From Phycisphaerae bacterium (lineage in GTDB: Bacteria > Planctomycetota > Phycisphaerae > Phycisphaerales > SM1A02), in contig PBAX01000003.1 of the NCBI GenBank assembly GCA_002716385.1, positions 1 to 64,000 of the forward strand: a stretch of 64,000 nt of DNA, given 5' to 3'. Both the position numbers and the translations under genes were made by a program. The notes beneath the pieces are model-generated. The model was given only the letters and a program-made list of their open reading frames with translations. It searched no databases and was not told the DNA's origin. This document shows, piece after piece, positions 11,390-22,719 of this stretch; the first letter of the stretch is position 1; each line of letters starts with the position of its first letter.

Positions 11390-12559
11390 CTAGCCTACTT
11401 CGCGTCGCTGGAACAGGATCACGCCGACGGCGATGGCAGAGAGGGAATACGCCAGTCCGTACAGGATCGCCTCGACCACGTAGCTGGCCGGAATGGTGTG
11501 ATTCTGAGTGATGGCGTCGGTAAGCCACATGACCTGGAAATTAGGAAGGACGTCATAGCCGGCTACATACAGCCAGTATGTGATCTTTTCCTGAGTCGTG
11601 GCGAGGTCCATCAAGGGGACCGTGGGCACATCGATTATCTCGGTGTACTCCCCGGATTCCCCGGAGATGAAGTTGATGGTCTTCGATGCCTCCTCCTGGA
11701 GTGTCAATCCCTGCTCCTTGGCCTTGGCCAGCCAAAGGGCCTCCATGTCCTTGATGCGTGACAGGAAGATCGAGTCGGAGAGTAGGCCGAGCAGGAAGAG
11801 CCCGACCGTCACGAGTATCGTCATGAGCTGGCCCGCACGCGTGCTCACGGCCACGGCAATGGCGCACATCATGAGGATAGCCATCATCATCGCGACGATC
11901 GCCAGCCAGAGATCGGGCTTGAGCCCGAGTCCCATCGGGCGTGAGGAGAAATCGGGGCCGAAGTTGATCGAGAGGACCCACGCAAGCAGCAGGAGTGGTG
12001 TCGTGAAGAAGATCACCGAACTCGTGAACACCATGTTGTAGAAGTAGTTGCACCAGGCGGCGACGCCCCAGCCCAGTAGAAAGGCGGTGGATCCGAAGAT
12101 CACGACCGGAAGGTGGATCGGATCCTGAACGGTTTCAAGGACGGCATGTGTTTCGACCAGCATGAAAATCATGAAGAGGAACAGTGTCGACAGCATCATC
12201 GCCAATGCAACACCCACGAATTTCCCTAAGACGAACAGCGGTCGTCCAACCGGTTTCGATATGACCGTCAAGGCGGTCTTGTTGCTGATTTCACGTCCCA
12301 GAACACTTGTCGCGATGAAGCCAGAGAGCAGGGCGGCTGACATGAAGATTGTCGCCAGTCCGATGTCGATGAGCATCCTCTGGTTCTCATCCATCGTGAA
12401 CGCCGAGAGCGGGTTGCTCAGGACGATCAGCAGCGAGGCCCCGACGAGAACCACCAGGACGACAGGCTGGCGGACGCTCTCGAAGAAGGTATTCCTGATG
12501 ATGGCGAGTATCTGTTGGAACATTCGGCTTTGGGGTCCGCTGAGGGGGTCGGGACCCAT
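11390..12559 (-). CDS. ABC-2 type transporter permease
   Basis: A 389-residue polytopic protein, with an alternative start at the ATG at 12523 (MFQQILAIIRNTFFES). About six hydrophobic segments are visible, including VVLVVLVGASLLIVLS near the N-terminus and a C-terminal LAYSLSAIAVGVILF. After the second segment comes GREISNKTALTVISKPVG then GKFVG, a motif shared with the larger permease at 18641-20713. There is no ATPase on this strand. The divergent ABC ATPase at 17454 is a plausible partner, which is inference. A 100-nt inverted-repeat-bounded segment lies in its upstream region. Confidence 0.85.
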   Translation of the reverse strand: MGPDPLSGPQSRMFQQILAIIRNTFFESVRQPVVLVVLVGASLLIVLSNPLSAFTMDENQRMLIDIGLATIFMSAALLSGFIATSVLGREISNKTALTVISKPVGRPLFVLGKFVGVALAMMLSTLFLFMIFMLVETHAVLETVQDPIHLPVVIFGSTAFLLGWGVAAWCNYFYNMVFTSSVIFFTTPLLLLAWVLSINFGPDFSSRPMGLGLKPDLWLAIVAMMMAILMMCAIAVAVSTRAGQLMTILVTVGLFLLGLLSDSIFLSRIKDMEALWLAKAKEQGLTLQEEASKTINFISGESGEYTEIIDVPTVPLMDLATTQEKITYWLYVAGYDVLPNFQVMWLTDAITQNHTIPASYVVEAILYGLAYSLSAIAVGVILFQRREVG

Positions 12560-12590
12560 GGTACCGAGGTGGGCCTCATCGCATCCGTAC

Positions 12591-12698
12591 AGGGGTCAGA
12601 TTAGGCAGGGTTCGAAGGAAAATGATATTTTGATGGCCGTCTGAGAACCCCGTCCACAGGATGCTGCGTACCAGTGTCACATGCCGATTCTGACCCCT
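12591..12698. repeat. 108-bp segment bounded by perfect 10-bp inverted repeats, between divergent genes
   Basis: AGGGGTCAGA (12591-12600) and its exact reverse complement TCTGACCCCT (12689-12698) bound 88 nt. Read toward each gene, TCTGACCCCT lies 25 nt before the SPFH start (12724) and 31 nt before the permease ATG (12559). A third copy of AGGGGTCAGA occurs at 40995-41004, just before another start codon. It could be a pair of operator half-sites or a small non-autonomous mobile-element remnant with terminal inverted repeats. No target-site duplication is evident. Confidence 0.5.
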
Positions 12699-12723
12699 CC
12701 TCGATATACCGGTTCATTTTCCC

Positions 12724-14946
12724 ATGAGAGTTGATCATCTGGCCTACCAGCGGGCCACGAAAATATCTGTATTTGGTTTTTTCCTCCAGCTGGTAGTGTC
12801 GCTGACATTCCTCATCTACGGTCTGGCTGTTGGCGACAGTCCATCCGTCATGGCGTCGCTTTGGGCATTCCCATCGCTCCTGATCTGGATCGGATTGATC
12901 CTCGTCTTCAACCAGCACAAGATGGAGCGGTTGGAATCACTCGAGGAGGATGAGCTATCCGCTGGAGGGGTGGCGGGCGAGTCGATCTTCGATCGAGCCG
13001 GTGACGAGGTACGCGTAGCGGCCCGCAGGCTCAAGCTGATCTATCGTTGGATTCTCCCCATCCTCAGCTCCGTGTATGTCCTCGCCTTGGCATTTCTTGC
13101 CTGGAGAATGTTTGCCTGGCTGTCGCTGTATGGAGAGCCAGGTTCGATGAAGAACCTGCCGATGGCTCAGGGCAAGGGATGGCTCATCGCCATCTGTCTG
13201 GGCTTCACTGCGGCCTGTTTCATCTGCTCCCGATTCCTTAGCGGCATGGCGGAGCTCAAGGCCTGGCAGAATCTTCGTGCCGGCTCGGGTGCGATGGTCG
13301 GCAACTCGCTCGTGCTGCTGTTTGTGGCGATCGGTGTCATCTGTCGATTCTTCGACGTCGATTATTTCCTGCAGATCGTCATATGGGCCATCCCAATCTT
13401 CATGGCATTCGTGGCGGCAGAGGTAGTTCTCAATCTGATACTTAACATCTACAGACCAAGGACGCAGGGCGACTACGCTCGACCAGCCTTTGACTCGCGG
13501 TCCCTGAGCCTCCTTGCTCAACCTGACTCGCTTGTCCGGTCTGCCAACGAGGCCGTCAACTACCAGTTTGGATTCGATATCTCCAGTTCCTGGGGCTATC
13601 AGCTCGTACTCAGAAGTGCTGGCTGGCTTGTCGTTCTGGGCGTGGTTTCGCTCATCGGATTGAGCACCATGGTCGTGGTTGACGGGCGTCAGGAAGGTCT
13701 GAGAATCCGCCAGGGAGCCATTGTTGGCCAGGATGGGACAGAGGTTCACGATTCGGGTCTGTTCTGGAAGCTTCCATGGCCTCTGGAGACATCCGAGCTG
13801 CATGAGGTCACGACCGAGCGTGTGCTGGCCATCAATGGTCAGGAGCGCGAGACGCCTACAAGTTCCATTTGGGGCAAGGACGATTTGAAGCTGGTTGTTG
13901 GCGACACGATGGAGCCCTTCATCGTCGCCGGATCAAGAATGGGCGACGGCAACATGGGCCTCGTGAAGGGGCTGATCGAGGCCACCGGGTCCTCGGACGA
14001 TCAGATCGAGTCGGATCTGAAGGAAGCCCAGCGGGACATCGTCAACGCGCTTGTCGACATGCAGATCTATCTCACCTACCGAATTCGTCCGACCAACGAT
14101 GAACGCGGTGGTGGATTGCTCGACTATCTGTCGTTCGGTTCTGATCGTCGGGCCTCGAGACAGAGTCTGTTGACAGAACGTCAGACGGCCTTGAAGCTTC
14201 TGGCGCTGTCAGAAGTCACCCAATATCTGAGCACGCTCGGTCTGGACGATGTGCTGTCCCTCGACCGTTCCAAGCTCGCGGCGGAACTGTTTCCACTGAT
14301 ACGTGCCGCATTCGAGAAGATGGACACCGGAGTCGAGCTGATCGGCGTCGATGTGCCGGTCGTACGACCGATCGGATCGATGGCGAATGCCTTTGAGGAT
14401 CTCGATATTGCCATCCAGCAGAGCGACAGCCTGATAGCGGAAGCGGAGCGCAATCGAGTGGTCATGCTTACATCCATGGTCGGCAACCCGGACCTCGTTG
14501 ATACGGTTCTCGATGCCATTGAGAAGTTCGACGAGGCACAGGTCCAATACGATCAGGCCATAAAAGCCTATGGCGAGGATTCGGCGCAGGCACGTCAGGC
14601 TTCCGAAAAGGTCGATCAGCTGTCAATGGAAGCATCCAAGCTCGTACGTCGTGGTGGCGGGCAGGCCGCTCGTCTCATCTCGACGGCGGAACGTGACAAG
14701 TGGGTCAGCCTGATGGAGCAGCGGACACAGGCGAGTCGAATTCGCGGACAAGGGGCGGCTTATCGAGCCGCACCTGAGCTCTATCGTCAATGGCACACGA
14801 TGCAGTCGTATCGAAATTTCCCCGACTTCCGGAAGTACATCATCGGAATCGACCCTGACAGGATGAAGGTCAATGTGGGCCTCAACGAATATGCCTCGCC
14901 GGGCACCATCTACAGCGACACGATCCTGACCGAGGAAGAAGAATAG
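12724..14946 (+). CDS. HflK-like SPFH protein with a six-helix N-terminal membrane domain
   Basis: A 740-residue protein. Residues 1 to about 250 hold some six hydrophobic helices (for example VFGFFLQLVVSLTFLIYGLA and WAFPSLLIWIGLILVF), with two more around TM5-6. A further helix (GWLVVLGVVSLIGLSTMVVV, about 300-320) leads into an SPFH/band-7 domain beginning GLRIRQGAIVGQDGTEVHDSG and FWKLPWPLETSELHEV, which resembles HflK. A long helical segment (about 550-690) follows. HflK and HflC normally have one TM helix, so the extra six are unusual. The known role of HflKC is to form a large membrane cage that restrains the protease FtsH. It is the first gene of a plus-strand run with 2-nt spacing to the next. 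Confidence 0.82.
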   Translation: MRVDHLAYQRATKISVFGFFLQLVVSLTFLIYGLAVGDSPSVMASLWAFPSLLIWIGLILVFNQHKMERLESLEEDELSAGGVAGESIFDRAGDEVRVAARRLKLIYRWILPILSSVYVLALAFLAWRMFAWLSLYGEPGSMKNLPMAQGKGWLIAICLGFTAACFICSRFLSGMAELKAWQNLRAGSGAMVGNSLVLLFVAIGVICRFFDVDYFLQIVIWAIPIFMAFVAAEVVLNLILNIYRPRTQGDYARPAFDSRSLSLLAQPDSLVRSANEAVNYQFGFDISSSWGYQLVLRSAGWLVVLGVVSLIGLSTMVVVDGRQEGLRIRQGAIVGQDGTEVHDSGLFWKLPWPLETSELHEVTTERVLAINGQERETPTSSIWGKDDLKLVVGDTMEPFIVAGSRMGDGNMGLVKGLIEATGSSDDQIESDLKEAQRDIVNALVDMQIYLTYRIRPTNDERGGGLLDYLSFGSDRRASRQSLLTERQTALKLLALSEVTQYLSTLGLDDVLSLDRSKLAAELFPLIRAAFEKMDTGVELIGVDVPVVRPIGSMANAFEDLDIAIQQSDSLIAEAERNRVVMLTSMVGNPDLVDTVLDAIEKFDEAQVQYDQAIKAYGEDSAQARQASEKVDQLSMEASKLVRRGGGQAARLISTAERDKWVSLMEQRTQASRIRGQGAAYRAAPELYRQWHTMQSYRNFPDFRKYIIGIDPDRMKVNVGLNEYASPGTIYSDTILTEEEE

Positions 14947-14948
14947 TC

Positions 14949-15926
14949 ATGAAGAAAATCGCCGCCATCGTAATTGGATTGATCATCCTGTCCGTGCTGC
15001 TGTTGTTCAGCATGACCTATTCGGTGGGATTCAATCAGGTTGCCTTGAAGAGCCACTTCGGCAAGGTGGATTCCTCCAGCATCATTCGTGAGCCGGGTCT
15101 CCATTTCCGATGGCCCTTCTTCGCAGACAGCGTCACCACGTATGACACGCGTGTCCAGCTTCTCAAGACCGGTCAGGAGAACCTGCAGACCGCTGATGGC
15201 TTGCAGGTGGTCATTCAGGCCTTCCTGCTCTGGAGGTTGGACGCCGAAGGTGAGGGCCCCCTGAAGTTCTATCAGTCGTATCCGGAGATGTCGGATGCCA
15301 GCGGCGCCTTGATTACCCAGTTCCGTGACGCGGTCTCGGTCGTCAGCGAGTATGAATTCAATGATCTGTTGGGCGAAGGGAACAAACTCAATGAGATCGA
15401 GTCGAAGATTCTTGCCAGGATGGGGACAGCCGTATCGGAAGGCGTGAAGCCCGTTTCGGCCGGAATCAGCCGGATCCTTCTCAGAGAGAAGGTGTCCCAG
15501 GAAGTCATCAAGGGGATGCAGGCTCGACGTAACACTTTGGCTGAGAACGAGCGAGCTCGTGGCGAGGCGGAGGCCGAGAGGATCCGGTCCGAAGCCACGA
15601 CCATCACCGACAAGATCTATGCCTTTGCAGAGCAGCGGGCTCAGGAAATCCGTACACGTGCAGACGAGCGAAGCGCCCGTTATCTCGAGGAGATGAGTCA
15701 GGACGAGGAGCTGGCCGTGTTCCTGATCTGGCTGGACACGTTGCAGAAGGCCTTGAGCAAGAACACCACGGTCATCATAGATACGGACTTCGCTCCTTGG
15801 CATCTCATGAAGCCCGAATCGCCGGATGGAAGCCTCCGCATTCCGAAGCCAAGGGCTGGCGAAGGCGGCTCCGGCAAGGTCAAGACAAGTGATGCTTCCG
15901 ATTCGAACAAAAGTCAGGGGTCCTGA
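14949..15926 (+). CDS. HflC-like SPFH protein
   Basis: A 325-residue protein with one N-terminal membrane helix (IAAIVIGLIILSVLLLFSM) followed by an SPFH domain (VGFNQVALKSHFGKVDSS, REPGLHFRWPFFADSV, YDTRVQLL). A long charged helix (ERARGEAEAERIRSEATT) is typical of HflC/stomatin families. The C-terminal 40 residues are Ser/Gly/Lys-rich and probably disordered. HflC partners HflK in a membrane complex. Here it lies between two HflK-like genes with 2-nt gaps on both sides, so equal co-expression is likely. No ftsH is seen in the window. Confidence 0.87.
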   Translation: MKKIAAIVIGLIILSVLLLFSMTYSVGFNQVALKSHFGKVDSSSIIREPGLHFRWPFFADSVTTYDTRVQLLKTGQENLQTADGLQVVIQAFLLWRLDAEGEGPLKFYQSYPEMSDASGALITQFRDAVSVVSEYEFNDLLGEGNKLNEIESKILARMGTAVSEGVKPVSAGISRILLREKVSQEVIKGMQARRNTLAENERARGEAEAERIRSEATTITDKIYAFAEQRAQEIRTRADERSARYLEEMSQDEELAVFLIWLDTLQKALSKNTTVIIDTDFAPWHLMKPESPDGSLRIPKPRAGEGGSGKVKTSDASDSNKSQGS

Positions 15927-15928
15927 GC

Positions 15929-17425
15929 ATGGCCAAGTCATGGAAAGATGGAGACATGAACGAGTCCGATCCATCGGCTCGTGACTATTCCGTTGAGGAG
16001 ACCCCGCTTGAGGTCGAGCCCGCTCGCAGAGCGGCTTCCGCGGAGTTCGTGGTCGATTCCGATGTTGGATCGGTAGCTGCGCTCAGGGAGGCGATGGATC
16101 CTGCAAATCGTTCCCTCACAGATGCGTTGCAGATGACGTTCCGTGTTCTGCAGACGGGCATCGTGGTTCTGCTGGTTCTGTTCCTCTTCTCTGGATTCAA
16201 GACAGTGGGCACGTCCCAGTCAGGTGTCGCCACCGTCTGGGGGCGTATTGTCGATCGTGACGGGCTGCAGCCTGGCCTTCAGATGAACTGGCCACCTCCA
16301 ATAGGTGAATTCGTTCTTTTCGAGTCCGAAGGTCGTGAAGTCGATGACGGTGGGGCGTTCCTCTCCCAGAACATGAGAACCCTAGGAATGGAGAACGCGC
16401 TCGAGGCTTCCGGTAGTCGTGATCAGTTGACTCCGTCCAAAGACGGATCATTCCTCACCGAGGGTGGTGAGCTGGCCCATATCGGCATCGACGCGAAGTA
16501 TCGGATAACAAGTCCGGCAACCTTCCTGACCAACATTGCGGATGCCGATGCAAATAGCATCGTGAAAGTGGCCTTGGAACGAGCGGTCGTGCATGTCGGT
16601 GGTTCCATGAAGCTGAAGGTGCTTCAGGATGAGCTCTCCAATGCCGAAATCGAGGAGATGATCGCCGACTCCGCACAGTCGGTCCTCGAAGAGATTGGCA
16701 GTGGCATGAAGATCAGTCAGGTCATTGTCCGGAACGAGGTCATGCCGCCGACCAGAATCCTCAAGAAGCAAGAGGAATTCAGTCAGTCTCGTCAGCGTGC
16801 TACCGAAAAGATCGAGCGTGCCAACAAGGCCGCTCAGGAAGCGCTCATCGGTGTCGCCGGCAAGTCCTATCCCGAGCTGGCCAGGCTCGTCATGGCCTAC
16901 GAGGAGGCATGGACGCTCGATTCAGATGATGTTGAAAAACGGTTGGCCGACATCAGCGCGTTCTTCGAAGGGGACGAGATCGCCGGTCTGGCCGCTCGTG
17001 CAATCAGTACCGCGAAACGATTCCAGTCCAGAGTCGATCAGGGCCTTGGCCGTGAGGCCAGGCGTTTCGCGGGTCTTTTGCCTTCATATCGAGAGCATCC
17101 TGATCTCGTGATCGCGGAAAAGTGGCTTGAGGCCTATGCGGCCGTCATGGGACGGCCGGACGTGGAGATCATGTATGTCCCTGAAGGGCTTGGTTCCATG
17201 GGGCTGGACATCACGGGCCTGGAATCCGTCCGGGACATCAGAAGGCGTGCTGACATCGAGGCTCGAGAGCGAGCTGTCGGGATGCTCGGGGGGACATCCT
17301 CCGATTACATGATGCGTGCCAGTGAGATCAACATCGGCAAGGCAGGCCGTCAGCTGAACATCGATGAATCGACTGGAACCGTCACAGGCATGCGGCAGGA
17401 GCTGCTCAACAAGGACCAGAAGTAG
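15929..17425 (+). CDS. Second HflK-like SPFH protein
   Basis: A 498-residue protein. An acidic cytoplasmic N-terminus of about 70 residues precedes one membrane helix (LQTGIVVLLVLFLFSGF) and an SPFH domain (VGTSQSGVATVWGRIVD, GLQPGLQMNWPPPIGEF, IDAKYRITSPATFL). This is the HflK pattern of a Pro-rich turn after PGL. A helical region and an Ala/Arg/Glu-rich tail follow. It differs from the 740-residue protein in lacking the extra membrane helices. Together the three genes could form a hetero-oligomeric SPFH assembly with two HflK-type subunits and one HflC-type subunit. The next gene starts 28 nt downstream. Confidence 0.85.
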   Translation: MAKSWKDGDMNESDPSARDYSVEETPLEVEPARRAASAEFVVDSDVGSVAALREAMDPANRSLTDALQMTFRVLQTGIVVLLVLFLFSGFKTVGTSQSGVATVWGRIVDRDGLQPGLQMNWPPPIGEFVLFESEGREVDDGGAFLSQNMRTLGMENALEASGSRDQLTPSKDGSFLTEGGELAHIGIDAKYRITSPATFLTNIADADANSIVKVALERAVVHVGGSMKLKVLQDELSNAEIEEMIADSAQSVLEEIGSGMKISQVIVRNEVMPPTRILKKQEEFSQSRQRATEKIERANKAAQEALIGVAGKSYPELARLVMAYEEAWTLDSDDVEKRLADISAFFEGDEIAGLAARAISTAKRFQSRVDQGLGREARRFAGLLPSYREHPDLVIAEKWLEAYAAVMGRPDVEIMYVPEGLGSMGLDITGLESVRDIRRRADIEARERAVGMLGGTSSDYMMRASEINIGKAGRQLNIDESTGTVTGMRQELLNKDQK

Positions 17426-17453
17426 CGGTCTGCCGCGGAAGGGTCATGTTTTC

Positions 17454-18644
17454 ATGGTTAGCTCGGGCACAAGCGAAATGGTTGTCGAGGCAGTCGGACT
17501 CACCAAGGTCTTTCGGGACTTCTGGATGCGGACCAAGGCCCGAGCCGTCGATCACATCGATTTCCACATAGAGCCCGGCGAGATCTTCGGATTGCTCGGT
17601 CCCAATGGTTCGGGCAAGAGCACCACGATCAAGATGATCCTCGGTCTCTTGAACAAGACATCGGGCCGGCTCGTCGTGTTCGGGCGAGATCCGTCGGATG
17701 TCCTCATAAAGAAGCGAATCGGATTTCTTCCCGAGGAGTCCTATCTCTATCGTTTTCTCAATGCTCGGGAGACGCTTGACTACTACGGGCGCCTTTTTAA
17801 TCTAGACCGGAGTGTCCGCAAGCGGCGAACGGAAGAGCTGCTTGAAATGGTCGGATTGTCGAAGGTCGCTCATCGACCAATCGGAGAATTCTCAAAAGGC
17901 ATGACTCGTCGCATCGGGATCGCCCAGGCTCTGGTCAATGATCCCGACTTTCTCATCCTCGATGAACCCACTTCAGGCCTGGACCCAATTGGAACAAAGC
18001 AGGTCAAGGATCTTCTCCTCGAACTCAAGTCCCGCAAGAAGACCATTCTTCTGAGCTCCCATCTTCTCTCCGACGTCCAAGACGTCTGTGATCGAATGGT
18101 GATGCTCTATGGGGGAACTATTCAGGCATCCGGAACGGTGGATGAGATGCTCAAGGATTCCGATCACACCGTCATCGAGACGCCGCGACTGAAGGCGGAG
18201 ACAATTGCAAAGCTGGAAGCGGTCATTCAGGACATGGAGGGGGTCGCCATCGACCGCATCAGGGAGCCGCGGCAGCGTCTCGAGGATGTGTTCATGAAGA
18301 TGGTCCAGCAAGCCCAGGAGAAGAAGATTGCCACATCCGGCGCAGCCGAGACGGGCGAGACGGCTTCCTTCCTCAGGCAGGAGTCCGAAGGTGGATCGCT
18401 CATCGATTCATTGGTGGCTCAGAAGGACTCTGTTCCACCTGCGATTGTCGAAGAGGCGACTGGCAAGACGGCTGATGATGGGGAGGTCCGTCAGCAGGTT
18501 CTGGACACGCTTTCATCCGAAGCTGAAAAGCCTGCAGTGGCCAAGGTCAAGGGGCCAGCGCCAGAGGCGCCCAAGGATGTGGACAGCAGTCTCATAGAAG
18601 GCCTGATGTCCAGCGATGCCGACAAGGAGCCGCGTGACTCATGA
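17454..18644 (+). CDS. ABC transporter ATP-binding protein with long C-terminal tail
   Basis: A 396-residue protein. The ATG at 17454 has GGAAGGG about 10 nt upstream; an ATG at 17478 is possible. Residues about 10-235 are an ABC-2-type nucleotide-binding domain: Walker A GPNGSGKST at 49-57, Q-loop region FLPEESYLYRFLNA, signature FSKGMTRRIGIAQAL, Walker B FLILDEPTSGLDP and H-loop LLSSHLLSDV. FSKGM in place of LSGGQ is common in this exporter class. After about residue 285 there is a roughly 110-residue Ala/Glu/Ser/Lys-rich low-complexity tail with no domain match. The stop overlaps the ATG of the permease gene, so it is its expected ATPase. Confidence 0.93.
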   Translation: MVSSGTSEMVVEAVGLTKVFRDFWMRTKARAVDHIDFHIEPGEIFGLLGPNGSGKSTTIKMILGLLNKTSGRLVVFGRDPSDVLIKKRIGFLPEESYLYRFLNARETLDYYGRLFNLDRSVRKRRTEELLEMVGLSKVAHRPIGEFSKGMTRRIGIAQALVNDPDFLILDEPTSGLDPIGTKQVKDLLLELKSRKKTILLSSHLLSDVQDVCDRMVMLYGGTIQASGTVDEMLKDSDHTVIETPRLKAETIAKLEAVIQDMEGVAIDRIREPRQRLEDVFMKMVQQAQEKKIATSGAAETGETASFLRQESEGGSLIDSLVAQKDSVPPAIVEEATGKTADDGEVRQQVLDTLSSEAEKPAVAKVKGPAPEAPKDVDSSLIEGLMSSDADKEPRDS

Positions 18645-20713
18645 CGAGACTCGTTGCTTTTTACAGGAAACTCCAGGAGATCCAAGAACGCACCTGGGTT
18701 CGAGTTGCATTGACTTTGGTATGCACGGGTCTATGTATTGGCTATCTGGCTCCAATCATCAGCTTCAGCTACACGGCGGATGCGAACCAGAGGGCGGTCT
18801 TCGAGGCCTTGTCGGCGGATGATGCAGAGACCACTCATCAGACCCTTCTGCTGACCGGTGAGATCCGGGCGAATGGCCGTGTTTTCACGGTTGATGAATC
18901 CTATTTTCCTGAAATATTCGATGAGAATCAGGTGCTCGTGAATCCGCAGCTGGTGGTCTATCTGGCGATTCGTCCGGATGTGGACTCGATGCTGGAGTGG
19001 GCGCCCCGATGGCTGCTCATGCAGCCGTCCACCACATGGACCGTGGGCATTGTCGCGATCGCCTGGATCTGGTTGATCATATGGATCGGACTGTTCGTCC
19101 CGTTCATGCTCACCTTGATACTCACCATGGTGCCGTCGTTCATATCCGGTCTTCTGGGCTATGAGGAGCTCCAGTTCGCCATTGCCGGTATCGGTCTGCT
19201 CACCTTCACCTTCCTGCTGCTGATTCGCCTGATGCTCCTGATTCTTTCCTGGCCGAATGCCATCTTCTCGGTGGCTACAACGCTCATTCGAGAGGCCTCG
19301 AGGACTCGGCTCACACTGTTGTTCATCGTGATCATTCTGGCCATGCTGCCGTTTTTGCCCATGACGCTCGATTCGGATTCGATGCTTCGATATCAGCTCC
19401 AGAACTTCATGAGCAGGAGTCTGGAATACACGTTTGCCTTGGCCGCCTGCATGACGCTTCTGCTGGCCTGCGGCACCGTCGCCTTCGAGATACGCGATCG
19501 CCACATATGGCACGTCATGAGCAAACCGGTGGGCCATTTTCAGTATCTGATCGGCAAGTGGCTCGGAATAGTCGTGCTCAACATGTGCCTGCTCGCGGTC
19601 GCGGGCGTGTCGGTCTTCTTCTATATCCAATATCTGCGGACAACCAGCACCGCCACAGGTCTGGCTGCGGAGGAGGATCGATACATCATTGCAGAGGAAT
19701 TGCTTGCGGCAAGGGCATACAAGCGGCCCGACCTCGAGCTTCCCGATGGGCTTGATCTGGACATGCAGGTTGAGAGAATCATCGAGAACGATTCCGCGTT
19801 CAGTACATGGCAGGATCGTGGCGTCCTTCCAGAAATGAGACAGAAGATCCGACGGGATCTGGTCTCGGCATATGAGCTCAAGCAGAGGTCGGTGCCGTAC
19901 TTCAGGAATGGTCAGCCAGGTGCGACGACCTTCCGTTTCACCGGACTCGAGTCGGCTCGAAACAGCCCGACGCCGCTTTCGTTGTCATACCAATTCATAA
20001 TCGGCCGTCTCGATGAACATGAGAGGTATGTCGCAGGGTTCATGTTCAATGACGACATCGAGTCGATCCTTCTACGCGAGTACATCCCCACCGTCATACA
20101 GATAGTCCGGATTCCATCGTCCTTCATCCAGCCCGACGGCTCCCTCGAGATAACGGTTCTCAACTACTTCGAGCCGCCCGAGGGGCGTGCCTATGGGCAG
20201 CTCTTCTTCGAAAAGGGGAGGTTCGAGATCCTGTACAGGGTCGGCGGATTCGATCTGAACTTCTTGAGGGTCATGATCATATTGCTGGTGAAGCTCGGTG
20301 TTCTTGCAGCGCTTGGTGTCTTCTTCGCGACGTTCCTCAATTTCCCCGTTGCCTGCCTCAGTGCCTTCACCGTGTTTGTGGGTGGTCAGATGGCCCCATT
20401 TCTGGCGGATTCCTTGACGATGTATTTCCCGGAGGATGTGGATGAAGTCGACTGGCAGAATCTAGGTCAGGTCATCAAGTGGGGATTTGAATCCACGGTC
20501 AGGGGATTGGCGAAGGCCATGGTCTTCATGTTGGGTGCATTCGGTGAATATCATCCAGTTGCGGATCTCGTGGAGGGCCGATTCGTGAGCTGGCGATCGG
20601 TTTTGAGTAGTTTCATCAGACTTGAGCTGATCTGGGGAGGCCTTTCGCTCGTACTGGGATGGTTGGTGCTTCGTTCACGCCAGTTGGCGATATACAGCGG
20701 GGGGCAGGGCTGA
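18641..20713 (+). CDS. Large ABC-2 type permease
   Basis: A 690-residue polytopic membrane protein that starts within the stop of the ATPase gene (ATGA). An N-terminal helix (VRVALTLVCTGLCIGYLAP) is followed by an extracytoplasmic segment of about 90 residues, then four or five helices. A motif EIRDRHIWHVMSKPVG then LIGKWLG resembles the smaller divergent permease. A second large soluble segment (about 340-540) precedes the last helices (MIILLVKLGVLAALGVFFA). The two soluble insertions are larger than in usual ABC-2 exporters. The substrate is unknown. It should pair with the ATPase just upstream. Confidence 0.87.
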   Translation: MTRLVAFYRKLQEIQERTWVRVALTLVCTGLCIGYLAPIISFSYTADANQRAVFEALSADDAETTHQTLLLTGEIRANGRVFTVDESYFPEIFDENQVLVNPQLVVYLAIRPDVDSMLEWAPRWLLMQPSTTWTVGIVAIAWIWLIIWIGLFVPFMLTLILTMVPSFISGLLGYEELQFAIAGIGLLTFTFLLLIRLMLLILSWPNAIFSVATTLIREASRTRLTLLFIVIILAMLPFLPMTLDSDSMLRYQLQNFMSRSLEYTFALAACMTLLLACGTVAFEIRDRHIWHVMSKPVGHFQYLIGKWLGIVVLNMCLLAVAGVSVFFYIQYLRTTSTATGLAAEEDRYIIAEELLAARAYKRPDLELPDGLDLDMQVERIIENDSAFSTWQDRGVLPEMRQKIRRDLVSAYELKQRSVPYFRNGQPGATTFRFTGLESARNSPTPLSLSYQFIIGRLDEHERYVAGFMFNDDIESILLREYIPTVIQIVRIPSSFIQPDGSLEITVLNYFEPPEGRAYGQLFFEKGRFEILYRVGGFDLNFLRVMIILLVKLGVLAALGVFFATFLNFPVACLSAFTVFVGGQMAPFLADSLTMYFPEDVDEVDWQNLGQVIKWGFESTVRGLAKAMVFMLGAFGEYHPVADLVEGRFVSWRSVLSSFIRLELIWGGLSLVLGWLVLRSRQLAIYSGGQG

Positions 20714-20733
20714 TTCACAGCAGGTACAGGACC

Positions 20734-22719
20734 ATGGGACGCGATCGAATCATTCAAATCGTCATGTGCGGGATCGTCATTCTCGGGCTTTCCATCGGGG
20801 GAGGCCTCCTTGGGAACCTCATCGAGAAGTCCGAGGCCAATGGTCTCAGATACACCGACAATGCCGATGAGAACATGCCTCCATTCGTGGCTCTGGGTAC
20901 CGCGATCGGCGCTGTCCGTGGTCTGATCGTCGACTATCTCTGGATCAAGGCCAACATGATGGTCGATCGGGGGCAGTACTACCAGGTCATGGAAGACACG
21001 GATCTGATCACGAAGCTCCAGCCTCGTTTCGCGCCGGTCTGGGTGTTCCATGGTCACAACATGGCCTACAACATCTCGGTCGCCACCAACACCCCCGAGG
21101 AACGATGGGAATGGGTCAAGGCCGGTATTGATCTCGTTAGAAACAGGGGGCTCCGCTACAACCCCAACGATCTTGAACTGCACAAGGAGCTCGCCTTCTG
21201 GTTGTCTCACAAGGTCGGTGGCTACACGGATGATGCCCATCTCTTCTACAAGAAGGAATGGGCTCGTGAATGGCACGATCTGCTCGGCGAGCCCCCGGTC
21301 GATCTCGATGCCCGTATCGCCTGGATTCAGGAGATAGCGGATGCGCCCGCCACCTACGAAGCCGCTATAGAGCGTACGCCCGAGGTGGCGGAGCTTGTCC
21401 AGCGACTTCGTGATGGTGTCAGTGACATCGACGAGACCTTTGAATTCGAGATAGATCAGCGTTTTCTCGAACTCTACTCCCTTTGGGACGCCATCAATCA
21501 GCAGTCCTACATAGCGGAGAAGCTGGGTTTCCAGGAGGAGCTCGATCGCAAGGGCTCGAGGATGTTCTCGCTGTTCAATGATCTCAGTCAGGAACCCTAT
21601 TTCGCGGAAGCCTGGAAGACGCTGATCGCGCATGCTCGAAAACGAGTCCTTCTCGACGAGTACAACATGGATCCCGCCTTGATGGCCCAGTACACGGAGG
21701 AAGTGGGACCTCTGGATTGGCGCAATCCCCACACCCACTCCTACTACTGGTCCCGAAGGGGGTCCGATCTTGCGGAGTTCCGCTCAGTCAGCGAGAAGGA
21801 CGAGACACTGAGAATCAACAACGATCGGCAGCAGGCGCATGCGTTGCAGGCATTGGCTCGAACCGGTCGCATCTACTACGACCCGTTCTCGCCGGGTTTC
21901 CCGGGCCAGTCTCCCGAGCCACGTTTCATTGACACCATCGACGACCACTTTGAGCGTTTCTACGTCAAGTACTTCGATGCCAAGGGGGCGGGAGGCGAGA
22001 CCTTCATCGTCTTCATCAAGAACTTCCTGTCCGGTGCCATCAGGGAGCTCTACAGGTTCGGTGAGATCGAGCGGGCACAGAATCTGCTTGATCTGCTCGA
22101 CAGCCGCTTTGGAAGGGGCGGATTCCCGCCGAACAACCAGTATGCCATCGATCTCGACGTGTTCGTCGCCAAGGAGACTCAGGGGGAATACGAACGGCAG
22201 CCCCACATGGCGCCGGCTGATGTCGTCGGCGCACTTCGCTACGGCTACCGCGTCGGTGTAGGCGAGAACAGACCCGAGGTCTATCGGGAATCAGCGGCGT
22301 TCGCCAAATGGGTGACCGATTACTTCAGGAATACCGAGAATCAGAACTTCACGACCAAGATGAACGGTGTTGGAAGGCTTCGCGACATACTCGCCACCTT
22401 GGACAAGAGTGCCCAGATCGCCTTTCTCCAGCTCATGCTTGATCCTGTCGTCCCCTTCGAGGAACGAATGACCATCTGGGCCCAGATAGATGATCTCGAG
22501 CCACAGCTTCGCCTGCGTGTCTACGACCAGATGATCAGGCCGTTGTCCATGGAGTATGCCCGTAGTCCCTTGTCGCAGGCCATCCCGCTCGATGAGGCGT
22601 TTCCGGAGCCACCGGGTCTTGAGGCGTTTCGGGCGCAGGTTGCCTTGGAGCTCGCCGCGGAACGCGAGGCGATGGAGAGTCTGGAAGTCGGTGCCAAGCA
22701 GAAGAGTCTCGGGGAATAG
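20734..22719 (+). CDS. Membrane-anchored helical-repeat protein, last gene of the SPFH/ABC run
   Basis: A 661-residue protein using the ATG at 20734; the frame is open further up but overlaps the permease. One N-terminal helix (IIQIVMCGIVILGLSIGGGLLG) anchors a large domain. Residues about 60-220 contain helical, TPR-like segments rich in aromatic residues (YLWIKANMMVDRGQYYQV, QPRFAPVWVFHGHNMAYN, RGLRYNPNDLELHKELAFW). No enzyme motif is recognised. The spacing of 20 nt after the permease places it in the same transcription unit. It may be an extracytoplasmic partner or scaffold of the ABC/SPFH complex, which is inference from position. Confidence 0.8.
   Translation: MGRDRIIQIVMCGIVILGLSIGGGLLGNLIEKSEANGLRYTDNADENMPPFVALGTAIGAVRGLIVDYLWIKANMMVDRGQYYQVMEDTDLITKLQPRFAPVWVFHGHNMAYNISVATNTPEERWEWVKAGIDLVRNRGLRYNPNDLELHKELAFWLSHKVGGYTDDAHLFYKKEWAREWHDLLGEPPVDLDARIAWIQEIADAPATYEAAIERTPEVAELVQRLRDGVSDIDETFEFEIDQRFLELYSLWDAINQQSYIAEKLGFQEELDRKGSRMFSLFNDLSQEPYFAEAWKTLIAHARKRVLLDEYNMDPALMAQYTEEVGPLDWRNPHTHSYYWSRRGSDLAEFRSVSEKDETLRINNDRQQAHALQALARTGRIYYDPFSPGFPGQSPEPRFIDTIDDHFERFYVKYFDAKGAGGETFIVFIKNFLSGAIRELYRFGEIERAQNLLDLLDSRFGRGGFPPNNQYAIDLDVFVAKETQGEYERQPHMAPADVVGALRYGYRVGVGENRPEVYRESAAFAKWVTDYFRNTENQNFTTKMNGVGRLRDILATLDKSAQIAFLQLMLDPVVPFEERMTIWAQIDDLEPQLRLRVYDQMIRPLSMEYARSPLSQAIPLDEAFPEPPGLEAFRAQVALELAAEREAMESLEVGAKQKSLGE

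Follow-up and report, generated by a model that had tools for sequence, protein, structure and literature searches.

Which membrane proteins, apart from FtsH, might be enclosed by assemblies of HflK- and HflC-type SPFH proteins? According to the accessible part of PMC12048511, FtsH lies within an HflK/C assembly that has the shape of a cage or of an open nautilus. The question is raised here by a block of seven genes in a Phycisphaerae bacterium (GenBank assembly GCA_002716385.1, contig PBAX01000003.1, positions 1 to 64,000; this whole stretch of 64,000 nucleotides is referred to as the window). The block encodes three SPFH proteins (S1, S2 and S3, together the trio), an ABC ATPase (ATP), two permeases (PERM and PERM2) and a membrane protein with helical repeats (TPR). 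With moderate confidence, we propose that the block specifies a membrane supercomplex in which an SPFH cage holds a metal-handling transporter set as its client. Most probably, the trio serves as the scaffold of a P1B-type ATPase that handles zinc/copper, and is joined here to a NosY-like ABC unit and the TPR protein. The window contains a derived copy of the system, its P1B gene being located elsewhere in the genome.

Conservation of the gene block

The gene order PERM2-S1-S2-S3-P1B-ATP-PERM-TPR recurs in Planctomycetota and Verrucomicrobiota; the conserved synteny over distant genomes, which a first-pass annotation of the window had suggested as a check, is thus found in two phyla. The additional gene, which sits between S3 and ATP in many of the relatives' loci, encodes a heavy-metal P1B ATPase, as identified by Pfam (seven copies) and NCBIfam (four copies).

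When S1 was searched for in 149 genomes of the window's phylum, a match was obtained in 38 of them, and the neighbourhoods of the S1 matches were read up to 20 kb. The first sample was made up of the window and other loci in which S1 was recognised, 40 in all. Counted over loci with enough contig, S2 was present in 36/38, S3 in 35/37, ATP in 23/30, PERM in 22/29 and a downstream P1B in 20/34. Named genomes were then scanned with an alignment of S1, and the best 80 of 441 relatives were taken as a further set; 28 of these are from Verrucomicrobiota, one is from Ca. Auribacter, L240 has no assignment and the rest are from Planctomycetota. Eight loci of this set are the same contigs as first-sample loci. 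Here the corresponding counts were 74/74 for S2, 69/70 for S3, 60/61 for P1B, 67/70 for PERM2, 44/54 for ATP, 44/52 for PERM and 39/50 for TPR; the set favours a uniform picture, because its loci are those most similar to the query. In addition, 145 genomes from the phylum of the verrucomicrobial genome G150, which carries L198, were searched with profiles. Any S1 match was found in 80 and a near-full-length one (query start at or before position 100, end at or after 590) in 55 genomes. Twenty loci hand-picked from 19 of those genomes (the contig of L320 ends within P1B) contained S2 and S3 in 18 cases, P1B in 17, ATP in 13, PERM and TPR in 12 and PERM2 in two, and PERM2 is therefore not part of the core in that phylum. 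Chance adjacency of the genes was considered and rejected, the block being kept in several phyla and other neighbours being common only to smaller groups. The largest cluster of unlabelled neighbours spans 19 loci; some of these open reading frames (ORFs) look antisense.

The block is modular. The trio and P1B occur without ABC genes in L066, L068 and L070 and also, with a more divergent S1, in L134, L135, L144 and L146. Conversely, an ABC ATPase, a NosY-like permease and a TPR protein are found with no SPFH genes nearby in 10 loci (L156, L157, L159, L160 and L164-L169); in the genome of L167 the trio is located elsewhere (L068). Since the trio and P1B stand without ABC genes, and the ABC genes and TPR without the trio, the trio is tied more closely to P1B than to the ABC exporter, which had initially been taken to occupy the place of FtsH.

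The same distribution bears on an alternative in which the trio organises an ABC-2 exporter for envelope components and P1B is a bystander. The tight operon of the window would be expected in that case. So would the presence of ATP, PERM and TPR beside the trio, which is seen in both phyla in the majority of loci, and the clusters of the f2 genomes and of the window, which lack a nearby P1B yet have the ABC genes. Such an arrangement sits poorly, however, with the absence of ABC genes beside the trio and P1B in three loci (L066, L068, L070) and two plasmids of Proteobacteria (see below), with the 10 loci in which the ABC genes and TPR lack the trio, and with the CDF fold of S1 and the metal-permease fusions of sister trios. 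Moreover, the five genomes behind the P1B misses each have a P1B elsewhere (478 to 709 bits). We regard this alternative as unlikely.

Distribution and phylogeny of the P1B ATPases

The position of P1B is variable: it lies on the PERM2 side in L035-L038, L040, L043 and L073, and upstream of S1 in L049. No P1B is found nearby in the f2 genomes (L039, L041, L042) and in the window, all of which keep the ABC genes. The cluster P1Bs resemble known heavy-metal ATPases of this type (ZntA, CopA, CoaT; TIGR01525/TIGR01512): the four cluster copies tested reach the TIGR01525 cut-off, and the DKTGT motif is present in 86/86 copies. Their CPx site reads CPCA in 68/86, so that the idea of a general lack of the CPC motif among cluster P1Bs was rejected. 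What distinguishes them from the known ATPases is that they constitute a subfamily tied to the SPFH trio.

Co-occurrence was examined in the 149 genomes, with S1 counted when the match reached the membrane domain at no fewer than 200 bits and P1B when it scored at least 400 bits against the cluster copy of G142; these thresholds were chosen after the lists had been seen. G106 was dropped from the S1 list (SPFH only), and G009, the N-terminus of which was missed by the S1 domain model, was kept. S1 was present in 39 genomes and P1B in 39, with 38 in common (Fisher's test, 3.6e-33, a value that ignores shared descent and physical linkage). The exceptions are G119, with a linked P1B of 373 bits, and G123, a genome 59% complete in which P1B adjoins an SPFH match; G097, G113 and G129 contain the trio and a linked P1B, yet reach neither threshold. 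Most informative are the genomes that account for the P1B misses, in each of which a P1B is found elsewhere, scoring 487 bits in the window genome (G000), 481 in G002, 480 in G034, 478 in G095 and 709 in G032.

The P1B copy of the window genome was placed by search, hidden Markov model and tree only. The tree was rooted by choice on the C15 copy of G000 and included 17 unlinked P1Bs; it was built without L283, L284, L289, L291, L292 and G032. The trio-linked P1Bs and the unlinked copies of G000, G002, G034 and G095 fall into one clade (0.997), apart from the other P1Bs of the same genomes. The copy of the window genome is located inside nodes of 0.997 and 0.983, the remaining nodes being weak. 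The trio-linked clade further contains an additional P1B of G077 that is unlinked.

The membrane domain of S1

As the first-pass annotation had noted, one of the SPFH proteins contains six extra membrane helices: S1 has six N-terminal hydrophobic helices beyond the HflK helix. An AlphaFold2 model of S1, calculated from a 27-row alignment (mean pLDDT 86.8, pTM 0.81), displays six long helices in addition to the HflK helix. When this model was compared to known structures with VIA-align, the 28 best entries were all CDF proteins (Z 18.1 to 8.2), the first non-CDF entry having a Z of 7.6; the top match was YiiP (8f6k_B; Z 18.1, 3.1 Å over 205 residues, 8% identity). Foldseek likewise placed zinc transporters first, with high probabilities but with E-values above 0.1. 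When the 27-row S1 profile was aligned by hhalign to one of planctomycete CDFs, which includes the L138 fusion described below, the match extended through all six helices with a probability of 96.2% (E 2.6e-9). With a smaller S1 alignment, the CDFs reached 93.6% and the controls PERM2 and PERM 0.8% and 3.1%, respectively. A plain sequence profile of the domain found no CDF in the PDB, and Pfam detected no Cation_efflux match in S1, Band_7 alone being found.

According to the model, the six extra helices of S1 represent the CDF zinc-transporter fold lacking its ligands. The paired HxxxD/DxxxD motifs of the second and fifth transmembrane helices (TM2 and TM5) occur in 0/128 S1 rows (proteins of 550-800 aa only, the window protein being counted twice); one row has the TM2 motif and none that of TM5. 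The ligand positions are mostly occupied by apolar or small residues; in 22/128 rows, H, D or C coincides with the first TM2 ligand position or lies next to it. An acidic residue in TM6, E233 of S1 (window positions 13420-13422), is E or D in 128/128 rows.

S1 is thus comparable to the CDF zinc transporters YiiP and ZnT in its predicted membrane-domain fold and in the weak profile similarity over all six helices, and differs from them in having neither a Cation_efflux match nor the paired ligands and in that the SPFH domain replaces the cytosolic C-terminal domain. Since a CDF domain has both ends in the cytosol and one more helix follows it in S1, the SPFH domain is predicted to be periplasmic, the location given for that of HflK/C in the available part of PMC2636767. 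The CDF fold also argues for metal transport rather than for generic envelope assembly, the role that had tentatively been suggested for this cluster.

The trio and FtsH

The HflK/HflC-like character of the trio stood up at the level of the domain: Band_7 (PF01145) is above the Pfam cut-off in S1, S2 and S3. Among the NCBIfam models, S1 and S3 lean to HflK (TIGR01933) and S2 to HflC (TIGR01932), and the match of S2 to HflC in the solved E. coli structure (PDB 7vhp_G) stands at 1.9e-18. The ftsH gene of the window genome is on contig C15 and none lies beside the block, as had been noticed from the window itself. Nor are the SPFH genes regularly next to ftsH elsewhere, which the first-pass annotation had named as a refuting case. 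In the 80-locus set there is no ftsH match of at least 100 bits, and the only ftsH over all three locus sets (76, 80 and 20 loci) is that of Candidatus Uabimicrobium amorphum (L063/L180). This planctomycete, which engulfs prey, carries the trio and P1B; in L063 its ftsH is on the strand opposite to S3, at a distance of ∼7 kb, and where L180 ends it appears as a fragment of 75 bits.

These observations have to be weighed against a second alternative, namely that the three proteins are ordinary HflK/C paralogues which serve FtsH regulation or membrane protein quality control and stand beside a transporter operon by chance. Their SPFH domains with HflK and HflC similarity and the ftsH gene of the window genome, in which no other SPFH gene was found, are what one would expect from it, and the authors of PMC11761036 take PA2438/PA2439 of Pseudomonas aeruginosa as HflB partners in the part of their text available. 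There is hardly any linkage to ftsH, however, the transporter partners are kept in several phyla, and transporter-domain fusions occur. Furthermore, six trio-bearing genomes examined contain 5 to 12 Band_7 matches each, some of them paired apart from the trio; because other SPFH genes coexist with it there, the trio is probably an extra system in these genomes. We therefore find the FtsH alternative quite unlikely.

Fusions and histidine-rich stretches

The CDF-type domain of S1 is not the sole transporter domain joined to HflK. In other planctomycete trios, an SO_0444/ArsP_1 Cu/Zn permease is fused to HflK (L071:1545-3719, L136:8097-10238, L139:7599-9815 and five others). The assignment is based on NCBIfam for L071 and L136, on Pfam ArsP_1 for L136 and L139, and on a custom profile for L137, L140, L142, L143 and L147. 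A true CDF is fused to HflK in L138 (3971-5731; 586 aa); this protein keeps both HxxxD motifs, and the 15-kb stretch that holds its SPFH trio contains neither P1B nor ABC genes.

Histidine-rich stretches, defined as at least six His in 20 residues, were counted in the 80-locus set. They are present in 21/66 P1Bs, 20 of the 21 within the first 45 residues and 15 in Verrucomicrobiota, as well as in 13/72 S3 proteins, all near the N-terminus, and in 2/81 S1 proteins; none was found in 78 S2, 52 ATP, 45 PERM, 73 PERM2 and 40 TPR proteins.

Related clusters in Proteobacteria

A tblastn search of plasmids with S1 of L044 returned 11 records, none at 80% coverage. Plasmid pl1WSM5005 of Paraburkholderia sprentiae (L329:6368-12420) carries an HflK-HflC-SPFH-P-type ATPase row, beside a zinc ABC transporter (importer) and a PCu(A)C copper chaperone, and a plasmid of Rhizobium tumorigenes (L330:6287-12333) an HflK-SPFH-SPFH-heavy metal P-type ATPase row. 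The S1 profile (688 positions) aligns across the membrane domain, with its positions 23-574 and 604-686 matched by the Paraburkholderia and 20-47 and 107-618 by the Rhizobium HflK, each of which has eight hydrophobic stretches. Both plasmid P1Bs score above 600 bits and have His-rich N-termini and a CPCA site; ABC genes of the block type do not accompany the trio and P1B on these two plasmids. With the Rhizobium HflK as query, 12 plasmids were listed, including those of Rhizobium, Burkholderia and Klebsiella; a similar HflK of a Klebsiella aerogenes plasmid is among the matches listed. In a third record, from Persicobacter, one gene is HflK-like and one HflC-like, and the membrane domain is missing.

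A cluster of comparable content is in print for P. aeruginosa. As described in the accessible part of PMC4542158, three genes of the HflC/HflC/HflK family share PA2434-PA2439 with that of the P-type ATPase HmtA, an importer of zinc and copper. Under zinc starvation, in a strain deleted for znuA, hmtA was up 5.6 fold and PA2437, PA2438 and PA2439 were up 14.4, 10.6 and 9.0 fold, respectively, and a weak Zur site is present at the cluster (PMC4542158). The proteomic data in the available portion of PMC11761036 agree in direction with induction by zinc depletion. For strain PA14, an operon of three SPFH genes, PaFlo5-6-7, is reported with slight phenotypes only in the excerpts of PMC13086221; it may be the same operon as PA2437-PA2439.

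The P. aeruginosa cluster, compared here by description, resembles the planctomycete loci in grouping a P1B ATPase with three SPFH genes (of the HflC/HflC/HflK family), here in a cluster that zinc depletion induces in P. aeruginosa, and differs in that no ABC or TPR genes are named and no CDF-type domain is reported in the accessible text. The grouping of three SPFH genes with P1B is found in most relatives of the window and not in the window genome itself, where P1B is on another contig. Given the P. aeruginosa and plasmid clusters, the four-gene core is already partly known.

The proposed assembly and the points against it

We infer the following arrangement, which concerns the assembly of the cage, its client, the ion, the direction of transport and the role of the ABC unit. 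S1, S2 and S3 would build a periplasmic cage, similar to that of HflK/C around FtsH in E. coli, and S1 would anchor it through an inert belt of CDF fold, which probably persists, for structure or docking, from a transporter that was formerly active. The active pump would be the P1B ATPase, the gene of which adjoins the trio in most relatives and lies apart from it in the window genome. By the parallel with HmtA, its ion may be zinc or copper; because HmtA is called an importer, the direction may be import as much as export. By analogy to NosDFY, the NosY-like ABC unit (ATP, PERM and PERM2) and TPR may act at this site by moving or remodelling something.

Several observations weigh against this proposal. 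The nearest P1B relative in the window genome is on another contig (C16:26955-28805; L172:9315-11375) and has CPGG in place of CPC, and the window has neither His-rich tails nor a linked P1B. P1B lies within 10 kb on either side in 24/29 loci of the first sample (the misses are L039, L041, L042, L058 and the window), and PERM2 and TPR are present there in 25/37 and 19/28. The trio and the ABC/TPR modules are found apart from each other, and in L312 and L328 of the G150-phylum sample S1 occurs without S2, S3 and P1B. Lacking the CDF ligands, S1 is not claimed to transport metal itself; the L138 protein, which keeps them, is the sole full-length match of its kind in 149 genomes. The first description of the trio as HflK/HflC-like does not extend to the curated families, the equivalog cut-offs being above the scores of all three proteins (S1 43.6 and S3 61.5 against 159.4 bits; S2 99 against 134.4 bits). 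Since the three Band_7 matches of the window genome all lie inside this block and no further SPFH gene was found, the trio could also serve FtsH there, and PA2438/PA2439 have been read as HflB/FtsH partners in the excerpted text of PMC11761036. Finally, although the P. aeruginosa hmtA cluster looks like the same S1-S2-S3-P1B core, PA2437-PA2439 are likened to the trio by annotation and not by sequence.

The state of P1B in the window lineage leads to a third alternative, in which this lineage has been re-purposed and the ligand-less S1, together with a P1B of broken CPx site, acts as a sensor, a regulator or a transporter of something other than metal. The CPx site is CPGG in the window genome (G000) and VPAA in three f2 genomes (G002, G034 and G095), in all of which P1B lies outside the cluster; with the motif eroded in this way, the substrate or function may have changed. 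The substrate is not fixed by the CPx motif alone, however, and G077, from the same order as the window, keeps a linked P1B (L035). Re-purposing appears to us decidedly unlikely.

Returning to the metal-transporter cage, a bolder version can be formulated only tentatively, and we consider it rather doubtful. SPFH domes, with a founding subunit derived from a fusion of HflK and a metal transporter, would enclose an HmtA-like P1B (and, in Planctomycetota and Verrucomicrobiota, the NosY-like ABC unit) to form a closed periplasmic metal chamber, a class of machine that would be undescribed.

Relation to known systems

The block resembles the E. coli HflK/HflC-FtsH complex, as presented in the accessible part of PMC12048511, in that HflK- and HflC-type proteins are encoded together and have predicted periplasmic SPFH domains after one helix. 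It differs in having three subunits instead of two, one of them with a six-helix fusion of predicted CDF fold, and in that its neighbours are transporter genes and not ftsH.

NosDFY, an ABC unit which serves copper-site assembly, offers the second comparison. PERM has no Pfam match and is recognised by its profile match to NosY (PDB 7o0y; E 1.7e-7). Of the two ABC-2 permeases initially called, PERM2 is the more weakly recognised, with sub-threshold ABC2_membrane Pfam matches only and a NosY profile match of 0.024. The match of ATP to ABC ATPases is clear, as had been expected, and the combination of such an ATPase with a NosY-like permease is shared with NosDFY. The block is unlike it in having two different permeases and a TPR protein and no PF05048 match. 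When the window genome was searched for NosD (PF05048), dispersed matches were obtained, none inside the block, and a true nos system at this place was rejected. TPR, correctly described at the outset as a helical-repeat membrane protein, starts with an N-terminal helix, and its model shows helical repeats; fold searches gave generic helical repeats with E-values above 0.01, and its profile finds matches in 113/149 planctomycete genomes, many over the N-terminal part only.

Links of SPFH proteins to the transport or homeostasis of metals or heme have been reported before. In the available portions of the respective reports, FloA of Staphylococcus aureus is tied to the heme permease IsdF (PMC10147376) and Shewanella SO1377 to iron metabolism (PMC1468410); by these descriptions, both are flotillin-type and come without an HflK/C trio, a CDF domain or a P1B partner. 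A 2009 survey of prokaryotic SPFH proteins distinguished 12 subfamilies, and the word 'transporter' does not occur in the accessible main text (PMC2636767). The open-licence literature searched yielded no description of a CDF-type domain on HflK or of its ligand loss, of the trio-P1B pairing as a cross-phylum unit, or of SPFH proteins with an ABC-2/NosY partner and TPR. The early statement that no such system had been described thus has to be narrowed: a related trio-P1B cluster is in print for P. aeruginosa, and what is new is the ligand-less CDF domain on HflK, in its modelled fold, and the coupling to the ABC and TPR genes.

Gene order, domain fusions and co-occurrence together point to metal transporters as specific clients of SPFH proteins. 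This would explain the three SPFH genes in the zinc regulon of P. aeruginosa, and it makes the contents of SPFH cages besides FtsH a directly testable question.

Layout of the block in the window

The places, strands and gaps of the seven genes agree with an ORF reading of the window and had all been given correctly before (Table 1). With the starts listed, the plus-strand gaps in the order S1-S2-S3-ATP-PERM-TPR are 2, 2, 28, -4 and 20 nt.

Table 1. Features of the block, in window positions
Feature	Position	Strand	Description
PERM2	11390-12559	-	389 aa; second, more divergent NosY/ABC-2-like permease
PERM2/S1 intergenic region, divergent	12560-12723		164 nt
S1	12724-14946	+	740 aa; residues ~1-245, predicted six-helix CDF fold lacking the CDF metal ligands; 290-313, seventh helix; HflK-type SPFH domain thereafter
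S2	14949-15926	+	325 aa; HflC-like SPFH protein
S3	15929-17425	+	498 aa; HflK-like SPFH protein with N-terminal extension
ATP	17454-18644	+	ABC ATPase with long C-terminal tail; ORF open from 17364
PERM	18641-20713	+	690 aa; NosY-like ABC permease with large insert
TPR	20734-22719	+	N-terminal membrane helix and TPR-like helical repeats; ORF open from 20659

The window genome is 2.79 Mb in size and 92.2% complete, with 8.1% contamination. A promoter scan found 2 candidates, compared to 4.0 in shuffled sequences, and a terminator scan found 11, compared to 7.4 (sd 3.0). Sites of the GGGGTCAGA type have five matches in the window at no more than two mismatches, a number reached by 11/100 shuffles; two of these sites form an inverted pair (12592-12605 and 12684-12697) inside the divergent PERM2/S1 intergenic region.

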